Positions 27,035-37,974 of a stretch of DNA of 44,396 nucleotides are shown piece by piece. Numbering within the stretch: position 1 is the stretch's first letter; each line of letters begins with the position of its first letter. The notes under the pieces are model-generated. The model was not told the origin of the DNA and did not search any database. It saw nothing but the letters and a program-made list of their open reading frames with translations. Origin of the DNA: Chthonomonadales bacterium (lineage in GTDB: Bacteria > Armatimonadota > Chthonomonadetes > Chthonomonadales > CAJBBX01); NCBI GenBank assembly GCA_012517255.1, contig JAAYVH010000291.1:1-44396 (forward strand), read 5' to 3'. The translations under genes and the position numbers were made by a program.

Positions 27035-28252
27035 GTGACGCAGCACAGGAACGACTGGCGACAGACTATGTGGCTGTTCGCAGCCACCGGATTTGTAGAG
27101 TCGCTTGCCTTCGGTCATCTCGGCGCGTTTCTGCCCATATTGCTCGACGAACTGGCGGTGCCCCGTGCCGCTGCCCCTCGCTGGATCGGCATTCTGTCGG
27201 CTCTTGCCTTCGTGATAGGGCTACCGCTGCTGCCGTTCTGGGGTGTCTGGGCCGATCGTTATGGCCGTAAGCTTATTATCATACGCAGCAGTGTGGCGGG
27301 CGCTCTCATGTTTGCGCTTGCAGGGCTCAGCCATGATGTCTGGATGCTTGCAGGTGCGCGGCTCCTGGGGGGCTTCGTGCTGGGCAACACGGGCGTGATG
27401 ATGGCAGTGCAAGAGGCGATCACTCCGCCGCAACGTCTGGGGAGAGCGGTCAGTTTGATCAGTGCGGGCTCGCCTGTCGGGATGGCTATCGGGCCGTTCC
27501 TTGGCGGCGCCATCGTGGCTGCGTACAGCGTGCGTGCTCTATTGCTCATCGATGCTGGCCTGACCGCACTGATGGCCCTTGCGCTCGGAGTTCTGCTCAA
27601 GGAAGAGGTCAAGCCGCACCACGCGAGCGTCTCGACATGGGCAGGCATAGCGCGGTCGTTCCGAGCCATTGTTCATAACAGGGCGGTTCGTACTCTGTAT
27701 GTAGTCACATTTGTTGGAGCCCTGGGAGTATCCGCAGCGCAGCCCTACACACCGGTGCTGCTGCAGCAGATGGTATCGGGGCCGCGACTGGCGCATGTCA
27801 TAGGCTTTGTCTTCACCGTTTCCGGCATTGCCATGGCGCTTCTGACACCGGCGGTCGGATGGGCGGGAGATCGGGCCGGTCATCTCCGTGTGTGGAGGGG
27901 CTGCTTGCTCGCCGCAGGCATCGGACTCGCAGGCCAGGCATGGGCAAGCAGTGCGCCGCAGTTAGCGGTATGGCGATCGCTGCAAGCTGCCGCTGTGGGA
28001 GGCGCCGGGGCGCTGGGAATGGTGCTCCTGGCGCGCTATGCAGACCCTGAAACCCGGACGCCAGTCCTGACCTTGAGCCTGCTGCCTAACCAGCTGTCGT
28101 GGTTCCTCGGGCCTCTGACAGGCGCCGTGATCGCCACGAGCGGCGTCACTTTGCCTTTCGCATTCGGCGCCACAGCATGCATCATGGCCGTTGGCGCATC
28201 GTACCTACTCCGTGATGTCGAAGCGGCGAGACCGCCTGCGGCCGGAGTATGA
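27035..28252 (+). CDS. Major facilitator superfamily transporter
   Basis: 405 residues from GTG 27035, about 12 helices. The loop 2-3 signature 'GVWADRYGRKLIII' is the MFS G-x-x-x-D-R-x-G-R-K/R motif, and 'GARLLGGFVLGNTGVMMAVQ' matches helix 4 of drug/proton antiporters (DHA1-like). A second, weaker 'VGWAGDRAGHLRVWRG' copy lies after helix 8. The substrate is unknown. An ATG at 27068 is an alternative start. Its 3' end overlaps the convergent pafA by 48 bases, so the terminal residues of both proteins share DNA. Confidence 0.9.
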   Translation: MTQHRNDWRQTMWLFAATGFVESLAFGHLGAFLPILLDELAVPRAAAPRWIGILSALAFVIGLPLLPFWGVWADRYGRKLIIIRSSVAGALMFALAGLSHDVWMLAGARLLGGFVLGNTGVMMAVQEAITPPQRLGRAVSLISAGSPVGMAIGPFLGGAIVAAYSVRALLLIDAGLTALMALALGVLLKEEVKPHHASVSTWAGIARSFRAIVHNRAVRTLYVVTFVGALGVSAAQPYTPVLLQQMVSGPRLAHVIGFVFTVSGIAMALLTPAVGWAGDRAGHLRVWRGCLLAAGIGLAGQAWASSAPQLAVWRSLQAAAVGGAGALGMVLLARYADPETRTPVLTLSLLPNQLSWFLGPLTGAVIATSGVTLPFAFGATACIMAVGASYLLRDVEAARPPAAGV

Positions 28253-29734
28253 GCCGGAACTCGGCATGCTTGCGATGAAGCTGGCGGCTTCCCGTGCGTA
28301 GGGGAAGAACGGATCCCGCATGGTGATTTGCCTGCGGGGTTCCACGAACACGGCGTCCCAGTCAACGATGTACCTGATGTGAGGTCGCTGGATCAGAGCT
28401 TCGACAATACGCCCACGCGCCTGCGCACGCGTGTTGGATGGAGGTTCTACCATGGCGCGGGCGATCTGGCTGTCTGTTGTCACGCGCTGGATGCTGCCCG
28501 AAGCTTCGAGCCCACCGTAGAGGCTCTGAGCGATGTTCACGTTGTGATACTCGAGGTCCAGGCTGTGCATGATGTCATCCTGCCATGACACCCCTTCGGA
28601 CTCGATGAAACGCTCATAGAGGACCCGCTTGGCCGACCAGTCGAGACGGTCCGATGTGCTCAACGGGTCTCTCTCAAGATCGTCGAGCGTGCGTTCCCAC
28701 TCAGCGAGCACCCGGTCGGTTTCAGCGTCGCGGCCCGTGTAGTAGCGCTGTGCGGCACTGAGGTACCGGCGTTGGAGGTCCACGGCCGGGATTGTCTCGC
28801 CGGATGTGAGCGGCACCAGCCAGCGCCATTCGGGATCGCGTGAGATGGTTCTGAGCGTCCAGAGCGGCTCAGCGATGTCCAGATCGTCGGGCGCGAGATT
28901 GTCCTCGATCAAGTCCAGGACGAGCGACGTCGTACCCACCTTCAGCATGGTGGCATATTCGCTCATGTTGGACTCGCCGAAGAGCAGGTGCAGGCGGTGG
29001 CGTCCCTGATAGGTGAAGAAGCCGTCCCACTTCGGGTTGATGATGGCACGGTTGAACCGAACGCGCGACGAGACCGTTCGGACTATATGGTCGGCCCGCT
29101 GCGAGAGCTGGAAATCAACGTTGCGGTCAATCTCGACTCCGTAGAAGTTGCTGACCCAGACGAAGTCCACATCGTGATCGCTCATGGTCATGATGTTCGA
29201 ACGGCTGTCGGGTCTGGTTAGCCGATGCCCGCCAACGCGTCCGGTGCCTGCGAATATCTGGCGCGTTACGAGGAAGGGCAGGAGCGCCGCAATCATCGCG
29301 GCAAAGGTCTCGTCGTCGGTACGGACCAGGTAGTTCTCGTGGCAACCGAAGGTGTGTCCGCCGAAGTGATCGACCGAGTTGTTGTGGAAGCTCACCACTT
29401 CCTGCAGCTCAAGGTCGTCCAGCAGAGACTGCAGAAGCTCGCGCCCTGCGCGGTCGTAGACGATAAGATCGTCCAACGAACAGCATTCGGGCGTGGCATA
29501 CTCCTCGTGGCTGCCGACCGCATCAATGTACAGGCGACCGCCGTTCGTCAGAAAGCCGCCGGCGCCCGCCGGCTCGAAGGCGTAGTCCCGCGAGTGTATG
29601 TCAAGTACGCCGAGCTTGCGACGCTCGAACGCGGCGTCCTTTACCATCTCGACTACCTCCTCGGGATCGCCGAGGTCCGGGTCGCGGACGAGACAGCCAA
29701 ACTCGGTCTCAAGGCCGAAAACGCGCCGGGGCAT
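28205..29734 (-). CDS. pafA: PafA, proteasome accessory factor A (UBact/Pup ligase)
   Basis: 509 residues of the carboxylate-amine ligase family. PafA joins the modifier's C-terminal Glu to substrate lysines with ATP. ATP/Mg residues are in 'GLETEFG' (Glu9, Glu11); the catalytic Asp is Asp71 in 'NGGRLYIDAVGSHEEYATPE'. Further motifs are 'FGCHENYLVR', 'LLPFLVTRQI' and 'HLLFGESNMSEYATMLKVG'. It lacks the Dop loop seen in its paralogue upstream, which separates the two. In the PafA I recall from Mycobacterium the active-site segment reads YLDVGSH, so one residue is inserted here after Asp. It is the last gene of the operon, ten bases after prcA. Confidence 0.95.
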   Translation of the reverse strand: MPRRVFGLETEFGCLVRDPDLGDPEEVVEMVKDAAFERRKLGVLDIHSRDYAFEPAGAGGFLTNGGRLYIDAVGSHEEYATPECCSLDDLIVYDRAGRELLQSLLDDLELQEVVSFHNNSVDHFGGHTFGCHENYLVRTDDETFAAMIAALLPFLVTRQIFAGTGRVGGHRLTRPDSRSNIMTMSDHDVDFVWVSNFYGVEIDRNVDFQLSQRADHIVRTVSSRVRFNRAIINPKWDGFFTYQGRHRLHLLFGESNMSEYATMLKVGTTSLVLDLIEDNLAPDDLDIAEPLWTLRTISRDPEWRWLVPLTSGETIPAVDLQRRYLSAAQRYYTGRDAETDRVLAEWERTLDDLERDPLSTSDRLDWSAKRVLYERFIESEGVSWQDDIMHSLDLEYHNVNIAQSLYGGLEASGSIQRVTTDSQIARAMVEPPSNTRAQARGRIVEALIQRPHIRYIVDWDAVFVEPRRQITMRDPFFPYAREAASFIASMPSSGSYSGRRRSRRFDITE

Positions 29735-29744
29735 GAGGCCTACC

Positions 29745-30563
29745 TCAGGCGTCCTCTGCGTTCATGGCGAGGTCCGTTGCGCGGGCCAGAACGCCGGGCG
29801 CGACCATGGCGAACTTGGCTTCCCGCTTGGTTGCGCGGTCGAGGATACCCGCCTCAACGCGGCCCGTCGCCAGCTCCTCCTTGAGCGCAGCAACCACAAG
29901 CGCCGGGTCTTCTGCTGCTTCGTCTTCCTCTCTGTCCGGTTGCTCTCGTAGAGCGATGAGACCCACCGCCCATGCGCGCAGGGCCTCTGCAAGGGCAGAT
30001 GTCAGCAGGGCATCGGAGCCAACGCCTGGCGGAGTTGCGCCGAGTCGGTCCATGAACTTGCGCAGGTGGTTGAGCATGCGCTCTTCGGCTTCGTGGGTGC
30101 CGGCTATTGCGGCTGCTCCTGCGTGCTGCGAGAACTCGCCGTCGTAGTTCAGCACGAAGAAGACGTCGTCCTCAGGCTTCGGACCGAGTTCACCGAAGAT
30201 CGCTCGGATCACCGAGGGCGCGCGCCATTGATCCCGGAACACCTCTTTCAGAGCCGGGCTCAAGGAGAAGCCCACGAGCCGCTGAGCCGTGACGTCGTCA
30301 GGGCTCCGTTCGAAGCCCTCTCGCGCCGCGAGATCCACTGCGCCGAGGCGTACCGCCTCGATGTCGGACTGGTTTCCGATCGCGGAGTAGATCAGCCGAT
30401 CGTATATCTCGTAGATCTTGCGCTGTGTGCGCCGGACCGTGAGCAGCACCAGGCCTGCGTCCAGACTGAGGCCTACCACGGGGCTTCCGTGCCTAAGCCC
30501 CTCCAGCGCGTGGTCACGCCTCTGAGCGATAGCCTCGTTGAAGTCGAACGGTGTGAATGCCAT
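29745..30563 (-). CDS. prcA: Proteasome subunit alpha (PrcA)
   Basis: 272 residues. Alpha subunits form the outer rings of the 20S core and gate its pore. The N-terminal segment 'AIAQRRDHALEGLRHGSPVVGL' is typical of bacterial PrcA, as are 'RKIYEIYDRLIYSAIGNQSDI', 'KEVFRDQWRAPSVIRAIFGEL' and 'EEELATGRVEAGILDRAT'-type C-terminal helices. It starts two bases after the prcB stop. The usual tail beyond the fold is short (ends NAEDA). It is non-catalytic, as no N-terminal Thr is exposed. Confidence 0.95.
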   Translation of the reverse strand: MAFTPFDFNEAIAQRRDHALEGLRHGSPVVGLSLDAGLVLLTVRRTQRKIYEIYDRLIYSAIGNQSDIEAVRLGAVDLAAREGFERSPDDVTAQRLVGFSLSPALKEVFRDQWRAPSVIRAIFGELGPKPEDDVFFVLNYDGEFSQHAGAAAIAGTHEAEERMLNHLRKFMDRLGATPPGVGSDALLTSALAEALRAWAVGLIALREQPDREEDEAAEDPALVVAALKEELATGRVEAGILDRATKREAKFAMVAPGVLARATDLAMNAEDA

Positions 30564-30565
30564 GT

Positions 30566-31345
30566 CTATCGCTCCAGCGCCGATATCTCGGCCGTAACGG
30601 CGGCAAGCTCGTCTTCAGCGACATCCTCAATGCCTTCAGCGCTGATGGTCTTGGCGAGCGGGAGTACCTTCGACCATCCGCCTGTCGCGGCGTCGAGGTC
30701 GGCGGCTATGTCGAGCATCAGCAGCGCCTCGCGCAGAGCCTCGGACCGTGACATTTCGTGAAACGGGCCGCGGGTCTTCACAATGTAGTTGAACACGCCA
30801 CGGATCTGGTAGGAACCTGATCCCGCGGCCGCATAGTCGGTGCTTTCGAACCGGGCGCCCATGGCGTCGTAGAAGAAGATGCGTCCCTCGTGCGACACAC
30901 GATCGTACGCGCTAAAAACGGGAATGAAGCCGCCTATGCCCTGGAGCGCCGCAGGCAGGCTTGCAGCAACGACCTTGGCGAGCTCGGCCAGCTTGCCGTC
31001 CAGGCTCATAGGTTGGAGCTGCGAACGCTCGAAATAGCGAAACGAGTGGCGAAGGTACCGCACGACCTCCATGGCCCGAGCGTATGAGCCTGAGATAGCC
31101 AGCAGCGTGTAGTCGTCGATCGGGAGGACCTTCTCTGCGCGGTCATACATCACCGAGTAATTGGCCGTCGCGCGGCGGTCGCCGACATTGAGAACGCCGC
31201 CGTCGTACTTCACCGCAATGACCGTCGTACCGTGCACAAGCGTGTTCAAGGATCGCTGGAGGTCCGCTGGCGGCACGCTGGGCTGCGGCATGGCGACGAT
31301 CGGACCGGCGCCGGCGATGAGCGTGCGAAGATCGGCGTCTGCCAT
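30566..31345 (-). CDS. prcB: Proteasome subunit beta (PrcB), catalytic
   Basis: 259 residues. The propeptide is residues 1-39 and ends VHG; autolysis after Gly39 would expose Thr40 as the nucleophile, as in actinobacterial PrcB ('HG|TTVIAVKYDGG'). The Asp and Lys of the active site are in 'GDRRAT' and 'RAEKVLPI'. The C-terminal part has 'GSYQIRGVFNYIVKTRG'. It forms the inner rings of the 20S core and degrades tagged proteins. The ATG is two bases after the modifier stop, with GGAG eight bases upstream, so translation is probably coupled. Confidence 0.96.
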   Translation of the reverse strand: MADADLRTLIAGAGPIVAMPQPSVPPADLQRSLNTLVHGTTVIAVKYDGGVLNVGDRRATANYSVMYDRAEKVLPIDDYTLLAISGSYARAMEVVRYLRHSFRYFERSQLQPMSLDGKLAELAKVVAASLPAALQGIGGFIPVFSAYDRVSHEGRIFFYDAMGARFESTDYAAAGSGSYQIRGVFNYIVKTRGPFHEMSRSEALREALLMLDIAADLDAATGGWSKVLPLAKTISAEGIEDVAEDELAAVTAEISALER

Positions 31346-31347
31346 CG

Positions 31348-31533
31348 CTATTCTCCGCTGCGCTGTCGGTACTTGCGCGCGGCGTCCGGGTCAACGCGGC
31401 GCATTCTGCGGAGAAGCTCATCGGTACCGGGGCGTCGGACGTTCGGTCGAACGGGACCCTCACCGTCGCCGGACTTGCGGTCTGGCGTCGCCGGCGTCGG
31501 GCGCGTGATCCTCTCTTCCAGTTGCGCAATCAT
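31348..31533 (-). CDS. ubact: UBact-type Pup-like protein modifier
   Basis: 61 residues, disordered N-terminal half and a helical C-terminal half ending 'RRVDPDAARKYRQRSGE'. The C-terminal 'YRQRSGE', the conserved RP(x)VRRP run and position between dop and prcB match UBact, the Pup-like modifier reported in several Gram-negative phyla including Armatimonadetes and Nitrospirae; actinobacterial Pup ends in GGQ or GGE. It ends in Glu rather than Gln, so no deamidation by Dop should be needed before PafA conjugates it. ATG 31533 has AAGGAG nine bases upstream, overlapping the dop stop. Only six bases separate the dop stop from this start. Confidence 0.93.
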   Translation of the reverse strand: MIAQLEERITRPTPATPDRKSGDGEGPVRPNVRRPGTDELLRRMRRVDPDAARKYRQRSGE

Positions 31534-31539
31534 CGTGCA

Positions 31540-33057
31540 TCACTCCTTACTGCGGTCTGAAGCCCTGTAACGGCTCAGCACCGCCATCGTCTCGTCGAGG
31601 TTGGTACACACCGCAAGCTCGCTATTCAGGCGGGCGAGGCTCCCATTGACGAGGGGACGGGTGTCAAACTCCATCACATCGTCGCCTGCAAAGAACTCAA
31701 TGCGGCTCCAGCTCGCCGAACGAACGGCCTCCGCGTGGCGATCAACCAGGAAGCCTCGTATGAACGCCCGCGTGTCAGAAGGCGCCTGTGCCGCCGCGCG
31801 CTGTACCGCGTCGTCATCGGCAATCCGAAGCATCAGACCTTCCTGCTCCAGGGCTCGCTGCAGGCCGTCTTCCGGGGATATGTCGTGATACGCAAGGTCG
31901 AGGCTCATCATCACCGGCGATGACCAATCGAGACCATCCTCTTCGGCGAACCGCGTTAGCAGCTCGAGCTTCGCGACCCAGTCCACTCGGTCGGACGTGC
32001 GCATGGGGTCCGTCTCGAGGTCGCGCAGAACACGGTCCCACTCATCAAGCACCCACTGACGCTCTGGGAGATCGGACGGAGCATCGTGGGCGAGAGCCAG
32101 GTAGTCCCGCTGAAGCCTGATGGGGGTAGTCCACGATCCATCTGCCGAGCGCAGGCGCGTGTCCAATGCCCTGGTCCTCGAGATCTCCTTGACGGCCTCG
32201 ACCGGATCGGCCAGGGCACGGGGCGCCGAGCAGCCGGCTTCGATGGCGTCCAGGACCAGAGCCAGCGTCCCGACCTTCATGGCCGTCGCCCAATCGCTCA
32301 TGTTGGCGTCACCCGATATCACGTGGAGCCGTCGAAAGTCGGCGTCTGGAGCGTGCGGCTCGTCTCGCGTGTTGAAGAGCGGCCGGCGATGGAGGGTATC
32401 TACGCTCGCATCCACGCTGACGAAATCGGCTCGCTGGGAAATCTGGTAGGCGCTCTGAACGCGACCGTTACCTTCAATGATCGCCTTGCCGGCGCCGCTG
32501 AACACCTGGCGGGTGGCGAGGAATGGGAGCAGCGCCGCGATCAATGTATCCGCAGGCACGCTGCGGCGCGAGAGATAGCATTCGTGCGTGCCGTAGGCAG
32601 CGCCGTGGTAGTCGGTGTTGTTCTTATAGACCCGGAGCTCCTTGCCGAGCTCCGCCGCACGGCGAAGAGCGCACTGGTGCACGATGTGGCTGCCCGCACG
32701 GTCATGAGCGACCAGGTCCACGACACTGAGGCATTCGGGAGTGCTGTACTCCGGGTGGCCGTGATCGTTGTACAGTCGTCCCCCGTTGGGCAGAATCCGG
32801 TCGGCATGTTCATCTGACAGCGAGGCGTAGCGCGGACCGGTGGCGTCGAAACGCGCGTCCTCCGGGTCGCGAGTAAGCTGCGGTACGGAGAATCCGCGCA
32901 TGTCACGCCGGGGATCCTCGTCCGAGTAGTCCCAGGGCGAAGCGTATCGGCCTTGATAGGCGCGGACGAGCGCCCGGCTCTCTTCGACCATGGCGCCCGG
33001 AGCGAGCCCCTCGATCCACAGACCGTATTCAGTTTCGAGACCTATGATACGTTGCAT
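31540..33057 (-). CDS. dop: Dop, depupylase/deamidase of the UBact/Pup system
   Basis: 505 residues, paralogue of PafA. It removes the modifier from substrates and, where the modifier ends in Gln, deamidates it. The start 'MQRIIGLETEYG' matches Dop. The Dop loop is present at about 40-65 ('SPWDYSDEDPRRDMRGFS'), which PafA lacks. The catalytic Asp is Asp98 in 'NGGRLYNDHGHPEYSTPE', and 'YKNNTDYHGAAYGTHECYLS' and 'HVISGDANMSDWATAMKVGT' follow. Because the modifier here ends in Glu, its main role would be de-conjugation. The ATG lies 65 bases after the ARC stop. Confidence 0.95.
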   Translation of the reverse strand: MQRIIGLETEYGLWIEGLAPGAMVEESRALVRAYQGRYASPWDYSDEDPRRDMRGFSVPQLTRDPEDARFDATGPRYASLSDEHADRILPNGGRLYNDHGHPEYSTPECLSVVDLVAHDRAGSHIVHQCALRRAAELGKELRVYKNNTDYHGAAYGTHECYLSRRSVPADTLIAALLPFLATRQVFSGAGKAIIEGNGRVQSAYQISQRADFVSVDASVDTLHRRPLFNTRDEPHAPDADFRRLHVISGDANMSDWATAMKVGTLALVLDAIEAGCSAPRALADPVEAVKEISRTRALDTRLRSADGSWTTPIRLQRDYLALAHDAPSDLPERQWVLDEWDRVLRDLETDPMRTSDRVDWVAKLELLTRFAEEDGLDWSSPVMMSLDLAYHDISPEDGLQRALEQEGLMLRIADDDAVQRAAAQAPSDTRAFIRGFLVDRHAEAVRSASWSRIEFFAGDDVMEFDTRPLVNGSLARLNSELAVCTNLDETMAVLSRYRASDRSKE

Positions 33058-33122
33058 TGAGCTGCCGATCTGCGAGGCACACGCCGAGCCGCATGTACTG
33101 CCTGGCCGATGCCTGCCATGAG

Positions 33123-34843
33123 CTAGATGATGTCGCGTGGGGTGCTGGGGCGAGCACGCTCGGCACGGATCGGCCGGACGGTTGCCACGTTCTCGGGTTC
33201 GTAGTCAATGAGCTTCAGCCAGTCCTCCTGGGCATCGCTCTTCGGGAATATCTCGTTCTCTTTGTACTCCAGCCGAATGGCCTGCCGCAGGTCCTCGAGC
33301 GTCACGCCCTCCGTTGCCGAGCGGCGTTCGATGCTTCGGCGGATAGCGAAGTCCTTGGCGCGCTCGACGACCGACCGAACCAGCGCACCGCTGACCAGGT
33401 CGCGCCAGTGGAGAGTCTCCACTCCGCCGTTGCGCATGTAGACCTCGAGGAAGCTTGTCTCTTCGTTACGCCGCCAGAGATACTCCACGGCGAGGTCGAG
33501 CAACTCATCGCGCGCGGCCGCCTCATTGCCCTTGTGCTCCCTGACGAGGTCGGGGTCCAGCGGTATGTTCGGGTGCAGATAGATGCCGAAGATCGTTCGG
33601 GTGTCGGCGCGATTGGGGCGACCGACCTTGACCTTTCGGTCAATCCGCTCAGGCCGAAGGATGGCCGGATCAATGTAGTCGGGGCGGTTCGACGTTATCA
33701 TCACGACGACATTGTCCAACGCGACGAGACCATCCATCTCGGCGCAGAACTGAGGCACGACGGTGTTCGATATGTTGAGCCATCTGCCCGACGAACGCGT
33801 GCGCAGGACAGACTCCGCTTCATCCACGAAGATGAACACGAGATAGCCGTCCTTGGCTTTGTTGCGAGCCGTCTGGAATATCTCGCGCACCATCCGCTCC
33901 GTTTCGCCGAGCCACATGTTCAGGATCTTGGGGCCGTTGATGTACATGAAGTACTCCTTCACGTCGCGGCCCGTCCGCTCGCGATACTCGCGCGTAAGGT
34001 TGTAGGCGGTCGCCTTGCCGATCAGCGTCTTGCCGCATCCGGGGGACCATAGAGCAATATCCCCTTGAGCGGTCTCTTCTCGAAGCGCTGGTAGAGCTCT
34101 GGATGAATCAGGGGCAGCTCGATGGCGTCCTTGATCACCGAGATGACGTGGTCCTGGCCGCCAATCTGACTCCACGGGATCTCGGGTACGTCCTCGAGGA
34201 AGTACTCCTGAATGTCCTTCGTCGGGAAATGTTCGATCGCGACCTTGTAGTTAGGCTCGACCCGCACCTCATCGCCGGCGCGCAGTTCCATGCCCCGGAG
34301 CCTGGTGGAGCGCAGAAGTATGCGGCTCTGAGAGCCCTGCGGGTCGGTATTGATGCGGATGCTGTCTTCTCCGATCACCTCCTGAACCTTGGCCAGTGAG
34401 CCGCCCGGATGGTATCCGAGGTCTCCCACCACGGTGAAGGCATCGTTGACGGTTACGCGCGCACCGATATCGACCGAGTCGAGCGAGAGCGCCGGGTCGA
34501 CCGAGCTCACGTACTCCTGGTCGCCCATGGCGATCAGGGCGTTGTCTCCGTCGGCACGCCCGAGATAGACTGCCAGTCGGTTGGCAGGCGACGTCAAGCG
34601 TCGATATGTCTCGTCAAACTCGGCGATCTGCTGCTCGGCTTCGACCAACCGCTGACTCTGCGAGTCCAACAGCTTGCGCAGCACGAACAGCTCGGGGAGT
34701 CGTGGGTCAGACCGGGGCGTGGCGCGTATGATATCGTTGAGCATCCGAACGGCGCGCCGGGCATCATCAAGACGCTGGGCCGCCTCCGGCCGCTCCGATG
34801 TTTCGGTTCCCTCGTAATCTTCGTCTGGATCGGTGATGCTCAT
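33123..34843 (-). CDS. arc: ARC/Mpa proteasomal AAA ATPase, frameshifted inside Walker A
   Basis: Two overlapping frames join to a protein of 573 residues, close to the usual 590-610 of Mpa/ARC. The N-part has a coiled coil (about 20-85) that captures the modifier and OB folds (about 86-215). The AAA domain has Walker A 'GPP|GCGKT' (266-273), the W-L-G pore loop 'LNMWLGETER' (about 307-316), Walker B 'FIFVDEAES' (Asp341, Glu342), sensor 'MITSNRPDYID' and arginine finger 'RPERIDRK'. One base is missing at 34041-34045 between GPP and GCGKT, which restores reading if a C is added. The C-terminus ends PRDII, so the penultimate Tyr (GQYL, HbYX) of Mpa is absent. First gene of the proteasome operon. 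Confidence 0.92.
34041..34045 (-). other. arc: Five-C run at the ARC frameshift
   Basis: On the coding strand the sequence is GGT CCC CCG GAT with five C. Six C would give GGT CCC CCC GGA TGC GGC AAG ACG, i.e. exactly G-P-P-G-C-G-K-T. A -1 slip on the Pro codon also restores the frame. It is not a canonical X XXY YYZ slippery heptamer. Confidence 0.9.
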
Positions 34844-35058: not shown

Positions 35059-35955
35059 CTACCATCCTCGAGAGGCCATGCGGTCCTGGTCATCGAGCTT
35101 GCGCACGTCAATGGAGAACATGGCTTCCCCGAGCCCCTCGGACACTTCGGCCAGTACTTCGGGCCTGTCATAGTAGGTGCATGCGGTCACGATCGCCTTG
35201 GCGCGAGCCGGCGGATCCGACGACTTGAAGATGCCAGAGCCGACGAAGATGGCCTCCGCTCCGAGCTGCCGCATCAGCGACGCGTCTGCGGGAGTGGCGA
35301 TGCCGCCAGCCGAGAAGTTCGGCACCGGAAGCTTCCCGGTCTTGTGAACTTCAACCACCAGGTCATAGGGCGCGCCCATCTCCTTGGCTGCGGCCATGAG
35401 CTCGTCCTCGGACATGCTCTGAAGCCGACGGATGCCACCCATAACGGCGCGCATATGCCGTACCGCCTCGACCACGTTGCCCGTACCGGCTTCGCCCTTC
35501 GTACGTATCATAGCGGCGCCTTCGCCGATGCGTCGCAAGGCTTCGCCCAGATCGCGGCAACCACACACGAACGGCACTTTGAACGCGTGCTTGTTGATGT
35601 GATGCTGTTCGTCGGCAGGCGTCAGCACCTCGCTCTCATCAATGAAGTCGACCCCGAGGGCCTCCAGTATCTGCGCTTCAGCAAAGTGGCCGATCCGTGC
35701 TTTGGCCATGACCGGTATGGAAACCGCAGCCATGATCTCCTTGATGATCTTGGGATCGGACATGCGGGCGACGCCGCCGGTTGCTCGAATGTCGGCCGGG
35801 ACCCTTTCGAGAGCCATGACAGCGACGGCTCCGGCCTCCTCGGCGATCCGGGCATGCTCCGGCGTCACAACATCCATTATCACCCCGCCTTTGAGCATCT
35901 CGGCAAGACCGACCTTGCTGCGCCAGGTGGCCTTCTCTGTAGTCGGATCGCTCAT
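35059..35955 (-). CDS. pdxS: Pyridoxal 5'-phosphate synthase subunit PdxS
   Basis: 298 residues, full length. PdxS condenses ribose 5-phosphate, glyceraldehyde 3-phosphate and ammonia into PLP; PdxT supplies the ammonia. Active-site residues by alignment with the family are Asp28 ('MDVV'), Lys85 ('[11 protein letters not shown]') and Lys153 ('[10 protein letters not shown]'). '[21 protein letters not shown]' and '[17 protein letters not shown]' are diagnostic. AAGGAG lies about nine bases before the ATG. No pdxT is present within the window, so it must be elsewhere or ammonia comes from another source. It sits upstream of the proteasome operon on the same strand. Confidence 0.96.
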
Positions 35956-36903: not shown

Positions 36904-37974
36904 TTACCTCTGCATGGCCTCGATGATGGCGTCCGCCATCTCTTGCGTGCCAACGGCAGTCGGGTCCTCCCTGTCATGCTTCATGTCGTAGGTCACGCGA
37001 CCGCCATCGGCTATGACGGCGGCAACGGCGCGCTCGAGACGGTCGGCGGCGTCTGTCTCTCCAAGATGGCGCAACATGAGCATGCCCGACAGGATCAACG
37101 CGGTGGGATTGGCTTTGTTGAGCCCCTTGTAGCGGGGCGCCGATCCATGGGTGGGCTCGAAGAGCGCGCAGGCGTCGCCGATATTGGCGCCCGGAGCCAC
37201 CCCGAGGCCGCCGATCAGTCCGGCGCACAGGTCCGAGAGGATGTCTCCATAGAGGTTCGGGAGCACCATCACGTCGAACATGTCGGGATGCTGGACGAGC
37301 TGCATGCACGCTGCGTCCACAAGGACCTCGTTGTACGCGATATCGGGATACTCCTTCGCGACCTCCGAGCAGGTCCGGAAGAACAGCCCGTCGGTGAACT
37401 TCATGATATTCGCCTTAGCGATGGCGCTCACGCGGCGGCGGCCATAATGACGCGCATACTCGAACGCGAAGCGAGCGATGCGAGCTGTGCCCTCGGCTGA
37501 GATCGGCTTGATGGAGATGGCCGAACCGGGGCGGATGCGCCCGGCGCCCATGCCCGCGATCTTCTCGGCCTCGGGCGTGCCTGCGTCGAACTCGACTCCG
37601 GCGTAAAGATCCTCTGTGTTCTCGCGGACGATCACGAGGTCGATGTGCTCATACCGCGAGCGAGCGCCGGGATAGAGGCGACATGGTCGCAAGCACGCGT
37701 ACAGGTCCAGTTCTTTGCGCAACGCGACGTTCACCGATCGAAAGCCGGTGCCGATGGGCGTGGTGATGGGCCCTTTGATGGCGACGCCGTTCCGTCGGAT
37801 GCTGTCGAGTACCGAGTCGGGAAGAGGAGTGCCCGTTCGGTCCATCTGCTCGGACCCGGCCTGCTGAATGTCCCAGTCGAAGGCGACTCCCGTAGCTTCC
37901 CAGACACGTCGGGCCGCGTCCATAATCTCAGGCCCGATGCCGTCTCCCGGTATCATCGTCACGCGATGTGCCAT
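36904..37974 (-). CDS. NAD-type isocitrate/isopropylmalate dehydrogenase family enzyme
   Basis: 356 residues. Beta-decarboxylating dehydrogenase fold: '[20 protein letters not shown]' at the N-terminus, '[20 protein letters not shown]', '[14 protein letters not shown]' (substrate-binding Tyr), '[14 protein letters not shown]', the metal-binding '[20 protein letters not shown]' and '[20 protein letters not shown]'. The spacing and 'ENTEDLYAG' favour NAD-dependent isocitrate dehydrogenase over 3-isopropylmalate dehydrogenase (LeuB), which has a different substrate loop. Assignment between IDH, tartrate and homoisocitrate enzymes is not settled by sequence alone. GGGAG lies seven bases before the ATG. 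It follows the glycosidase-like gene by 66 bases. Confidence 0.88.

Follow-up and report, generated by a model that had tools for sequence, protein, structure and literature searches.

C-terminal tails that contain a tyrosine are treated as the common way for ATPases to open 20S proteasomes. The biochemistry of PafA, Dop and Mpa is established, and it is the source of the activities assigned here by analogy. The actinobacterial ATPase Mpa/ARC ends in GQYL, with a penultimate tyrosine, and this tail docks into the pockets of the alpha subunits (PMC8223512, PMC12288473, PMC8755798). In the Bpa-20S structure, the Y and L of GQYL contact alpha R26 and K52 (PMC11953334).

UBact is a tag of Gram-negative bacteria (Lehmann et al. 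2017, doi 10.1016/j.bbrc.2017.01.037, as cited in PMC12751074). Dop and PafA homologues have been noted in Armatimonadetes (PMC7947786), and proteasome subunits of Armatimonadetes, Nitrospirae and Verrucomicrobia form a cluster of their own, separate from those of Actinobacteria (Fuchs et al. 2017, PMC5666114). In the available part of that study, the ATPase tail and the alpha pocket are not treated. A literature search found no biochemistry on the source organism of the present locus or on its close relatives.

Gene content and distribution of the operon

The window (the whole stretch of DNA analysed, 44,396 nucleotides) carries ARC, dop, UBact, prcB, prcA and pafA consecutively and in this transcription order on the minus strand, from 34843 to 28205. 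The genes are tightly spaced, with 65 bases between ARC and dop, 6 between dop and UBact, 2 between UBact and prcB, 2 between prcB and prcA, and 10 between prcA and pafA. An earlier note on this DNA had described six genes on one strand with such gaps; order, strand and spacing stand, but ARC is not a single frame, being divided between two open reading frames (ORFs). Gene order, enzyme families, active-site positions and the alpha lysine K52 are shared with the actinobacterial Pup-proteasome, whose tag is Pup where the window has UBact. A search of the window for RNA families and tRNAs gave none.

The two members of the PafA/Dop family can be told apart. Dop (depupylase/deamidase family; 505 aa, 31540..33057, minus strand) matches Pup_ligase with 508 bits, and the Dop model TIGR03688 (429 bits) scores above the PafA model (339 bits). 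Its paralogue, the ligase PafA (509 aa, 28205..29734, minus strand), matches Pup_ligase with 430 bits; the PafA model TIGR03686 gives 312 bits vs 302 for the Dop model, and the Dop-loop is absent. PF03136 was found twice in the source genome, which corresponds to these two paralogues, both beside the tag gene. In alignments with solved relatives, Asp98 of Dop (32764-32766) falls on Asp94 of the Dop structure, and Asp71 of PafA (29522-29524) on the same position.

The 20S subunits are more divergent. PrcB, the beta subunit (30566..31345, minus strand; PF00227, Proteasome), has a 39-residue propeptide, and its Thr40 (31226-31228) aligns with Thr1 of mature beta subunits, so that each of the three catalytic residues claimed earlier occupies a known active-site position. 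PrcA, a divergent alpha subunit (29745..30563, minus strand), is recognised by TIGR03691 (20S_bact_alpha) and by a fold model. Neither subunit reaches the curated cut-off of its actinobacterial model (PrcA scores 66 bits with 20S_bact_alpha), and both look like the divergent type of the Gram-negative cluster, as far as the available part of that study describes it (PMC5666114).

The tag gene (31348..31533, minus strand) encodes a UBact of 61 aa with the C-terminus RQRSGE. PF20513 is matched over positions 1-43 of 43 with 77 bits and NF033388 with 77.8 bits (cut-off 35); Pup (PF05639) has no match in the source genome. The final GE is encoded at 31351-31356. It had been taken as a sign of an altered system, and the ending is indeed present; however, 39 of 65 scored UBact C-termini end in GE (25 end in GQ and one is unreadable) and the Pfam profile ends there, so the ending is normal. 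In the same-genus genome G001 (locus L116) UBact ends in GQ, which suggests that a requirement for Dop as deamidase can come and go over short distances. The Dop proteins of these two genus members share only 60% identity, compared with 83% for PafA and 80% for PrcB.

Profile searches with Pfam and NCBIfam placed the product of every gene in its expected family. The same six-gene order recurs in about 17 independent genomes, which belong to Armatimonadota, Poribacteria, Nitrospirota and Fraserbacteria; the genes are thus co-conserved, and none of the proteins falls outside the PafA/Dop or 20S families. Together, family matches and conserved order uphold the earlier view of an actinobacterial gene order in a UBact-type operon of an Armatimonadota-like genome. 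Of 201 genomes sampled from the phylum, 99 have UBact, and 14 control genomes gave no match. The operon belongs to the UBact conjugation-proteasome type already known from Armatimonadota and further Gram-negative phyla (Lehmann et al. 2017; Fuchs et al. 2017; PF20513, NF033388), with which it shares the tag family end to end and the same partners. Its gene content is not essentially different and holds no novelty as a gene set, although the ARC frame of the window is broken. As all six parts are present, the suggestion of a simplified system lacks support.

In a tree of ARC proteins the window groups with its own genus and family, and the operon thus looks like one inherited with its lineage by ordinary vertical descent. 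Other arrangements exist among related loci. In Fimbriimonadales and relatives (L043, L045, L047, L057, L065), Dop, UBact, PrcB and PrcA lie together and ARC was not found beside dop; where the genome of such loci was searched, ARC lies elsewhere and keeps an aliphatic tail. Chloroflexota loci such as L066, L067, L071-L074, L078 and L081 have adjacent Dop and PafA homologues, and the queries used detected no UBact or 20S genes near them. Upstream of the operon in the window, sequence reading points to a PdxS-like pyridoxal phosphate synthase (35059-35955) and an isocitrate/isopropylmalate dehydrogenase-like protein (36904-37974); DNA matching this neighbourhood follows in G001 too.

The interrupted ARC reading frame

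ARC is assembled as two ORFs in different frames, 34022-34843 and 33123-34175. The first, on the minus strand at 34022..34843, encodes 273 aa that match PF17758, PF16450 and positions 22-226 of TIGR03689; it comprises a coiled-coil-like start, the OB domains and the start of the AAA domain, and loses the frame after the GPP of Walker A. The second part (33123..34040, minus strand) carries the AAA and C-terminal domains (PF00004; TIGR03689 positions 224-509) and matches Mpa with E 2e-65. The break is a one-base deletion on the minus strand, within a stretch of five C, GGTCCCCCGGATGCGGC (34039..34045), which interrupts the Walker A motif GPPGCGKT: after GILLYGPP the first ORF runs into DAARR and a stop, and PGCGKTLIGK lies in the second frame, which stays open to 33123.

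As written, the window copy would give no intact ARC. No second proteasomal ARC that might rescue the broken gene was found in the source genome, where the remaining matches are no more than generic AAA proteins with 32-36% identity. The earlier description of the operon as complete is thus overstated.

The break stands alone among relatives. In G001, ARC is open over 586 codons, and the nucleotide alignment has a single-base gap at the position of the break. A protein-level frame scan, which replaced a nucleotide indel count that was too noisy at about 70% identity to G001, placed the frame change at the same point against each of seven relatives, all of which have an intact ARC. The gene also looks constrained. 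Its C-terminal half is 93% identical in protein sequence to that of the sister G001, and the window has 9 lineage-specific protein changes vs 5 in G001. Relaxed constraint of the kind expected from pseudogene decay was looked for in ARC and not seen in this comparison; ARC has therefore not been drifting freely. Apparent constraint on both sides of the break, and its standing as the only convincing frame break in the coding sequence compared, make an assembly error or a very recent mutation the most likely origin.

Between these two, an error of assembly or sequencing in the run of five C/G, with ARC intact in the organism, ranks first and is probably the correct reading. The genome is a draft in 327 contigs and the change concerns one base of a short homopolymer, which fits this reading well, as do the seven intact relatives out of seven and the constrained frame on both sides. 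The scan also found no other convincing frame break in the approximately 24 kb of coding sequence compared, so the assembly is not generally rich in indels, which weighs against this explanation.

A real and recent mutation ranks second: the proteasomal ATPase would then be lost, or in the course of being lost, in this lineage, and the operon would be decaying. The deletion is, after all, present in the assembled sequence and within Walker A, and the genome is rated 100% complete with no second proteasomal ARC. Decay is nevertheless unlikely, given that the codons downstream of the break are still family-like, that the window shows no clear excess of changes over its sister, and that the remaining five genes of the operon are intact. 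Programmed -1 ribosomal frameshifting at T CCC CCG G, yielding a truncated OB-domain protein beside full ARC, comes a distant third and is highly improbable: a -1 slip there would restore GPPGCGKT exactly, but the heptamer is not a standard slippery site, the RNA downstream is not unusually structured (z = +0.62), and the same-genus member and all other relatives tested have one continuous frame. An assembly error thus remains the preferred explanation of the break.

ARC tails and alpha pockets in the UBact branch

The ARC of the window ends in -Asp-Ile-Ile-COOH (33126..33134, minus strand) in place of GQYL or HbYX. The same type of ending is found throughout a set of 42 non-redundant UBact-linked ARCs from Armatimonadota, Poribacteria, Bipolaricaulota or Acetothermia, Fraserbacteria and Nitrospirota. 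All 42 have I or V at the penultimate position and I, V, L or M at the end; a penultimate aromatic residue occurs in none. Tail entropy is 0.9-1.1 bits vs about 2-3.5 in the 20 residues preceding it. All five Pup-linked ARCs, in contrast, have a penultimate aromatic residue (HYL, HYL, HYL, TFL and AYL). A variant or altered ATPase had been proposed earlier; the idea survives by way of this conserved aliphatic tail, which the earlier note did not name. No description of an aliphatic tail in UBact-linked ARCs was found in the literature searched, a body of work that did not include De Mot 2007 and Lehmann 2017.

The alpha subunit that would receive this tail also differs. Because a Pfam search of PrcA gave no match, its structure was modelled from an alignment of 24 sequences. 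The model has the 20S alpha fold (pLDDT 91.6, pTM 0.89), and in the PDB it is closest to chains of the M. tuberculosis (Mtb) proteasome (E 1e-14). Positions were numbered on the Mtb alpha subunit through a sequence that matches PDB 3h6f chain A without a difference over 248 residues. The pocket lysine equivalent to Mtb K52 lies at 30417-30419 and is kept in all 34 UBact-type and all 6 Pup-type alpha subunits. The basic residues are distributed differently: position 28 is basic in 6/6 of the Pup type and S or A in 34/34 of the UBact type, and position 26 is basic in 5/6 vs 1/34. Arg predominates at positions 25 and 51 of the UBact type, which also has two two-residue deletions flanking the gate and the pocket segment. 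Compared with the actinobacterial Pup-proteasome, the window type therefore differs in the ARC tail (-DII for GQYL), in the loss of basic residues at alpha 26 and 28, and in these short deletions.

Some genomes hold both systems. Pup and UBact systems are both complete in two Nitrospira genomes (G201, G202; loci L061, L064) and two Poribacteria genomes (G204, G205; loci L048, L059), each with two ARCs, two PrcAs, four Pup_ligase proteins, Pup and UBact in two parallel operons. In G201, G204 and G205, where both tails are readable, the Pup-type ARC has an aromatic tail and the UBact-type ARC an aliphatic one. A contig end divides the UBact-type ARC of G202; its tail, taken from L064, is NQII.

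Proposed working and docking

By analogy with the characterised enzymes, PafA would attach UBact through its C-terminal glutamate to target lysines, and Dop would remove UBact from these targets. Deamidation would be unnecessary for the window copy, because its UBact already ends in Glu. ARC, as a hexamer, would bind the tag, then unfold the tagged protein and feed it into the 20S chamber of PrcAB. There Thr40 of PrcB, exposed as Thr1 once the propeptide is removed, would cut. ARC would dock on the alpha ring by -DII, its carboxylate meeting the conserved alpha lysine in replacement of GQYL. We infer all of these activities, and the docking role of the tail, from family membership and sequence comparison. 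Overall, the reading of the locus as an operon for UBact-type tagging and proteasomal degradation in an Armatimonadota-like bacterium, with putative roles as above for PafA, Dop, ARC and PrcAB and a proposed docking by an aliphatic tail, is held with high confidence.

The wider proposal concerns the branch as a whole. The tail and pocket comparisons suggest that a distinct ATPase-to-20S docking code may operate in UBact proteasomes: [IV]-[IVLM]-COOH would enter an alpha pocket that keeps only the carboxylate-binding lysine, the basic residues near the tyrosine site having been lost. In the dual genomes of Nitrospirota and Poribacteria, such a code would separate two ATPase-20S pairs. The case for this code is evenly balanced. 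The differences could also reflect descent and not docking. In the ARC tree, the UBact-type and Pup-type proteins part at a single deep split (100/100 support), with which tail, pocket and tag type all coincide. Their association therefore counts as one evolutionary event, and the tail and pocket differences are not independent events.

For the operon itself, the gain is one further genome for a system that is known but has been little studied. The comparison of tail and pocket has the larger value and is the part worth pursuing, and the dual-system genomes offer a built-in test of whether tails and pockets form matched, insulated pairs. An entire branch of bacterial proteasomes seems to manage with no tyrosine-containing ATPase tail.
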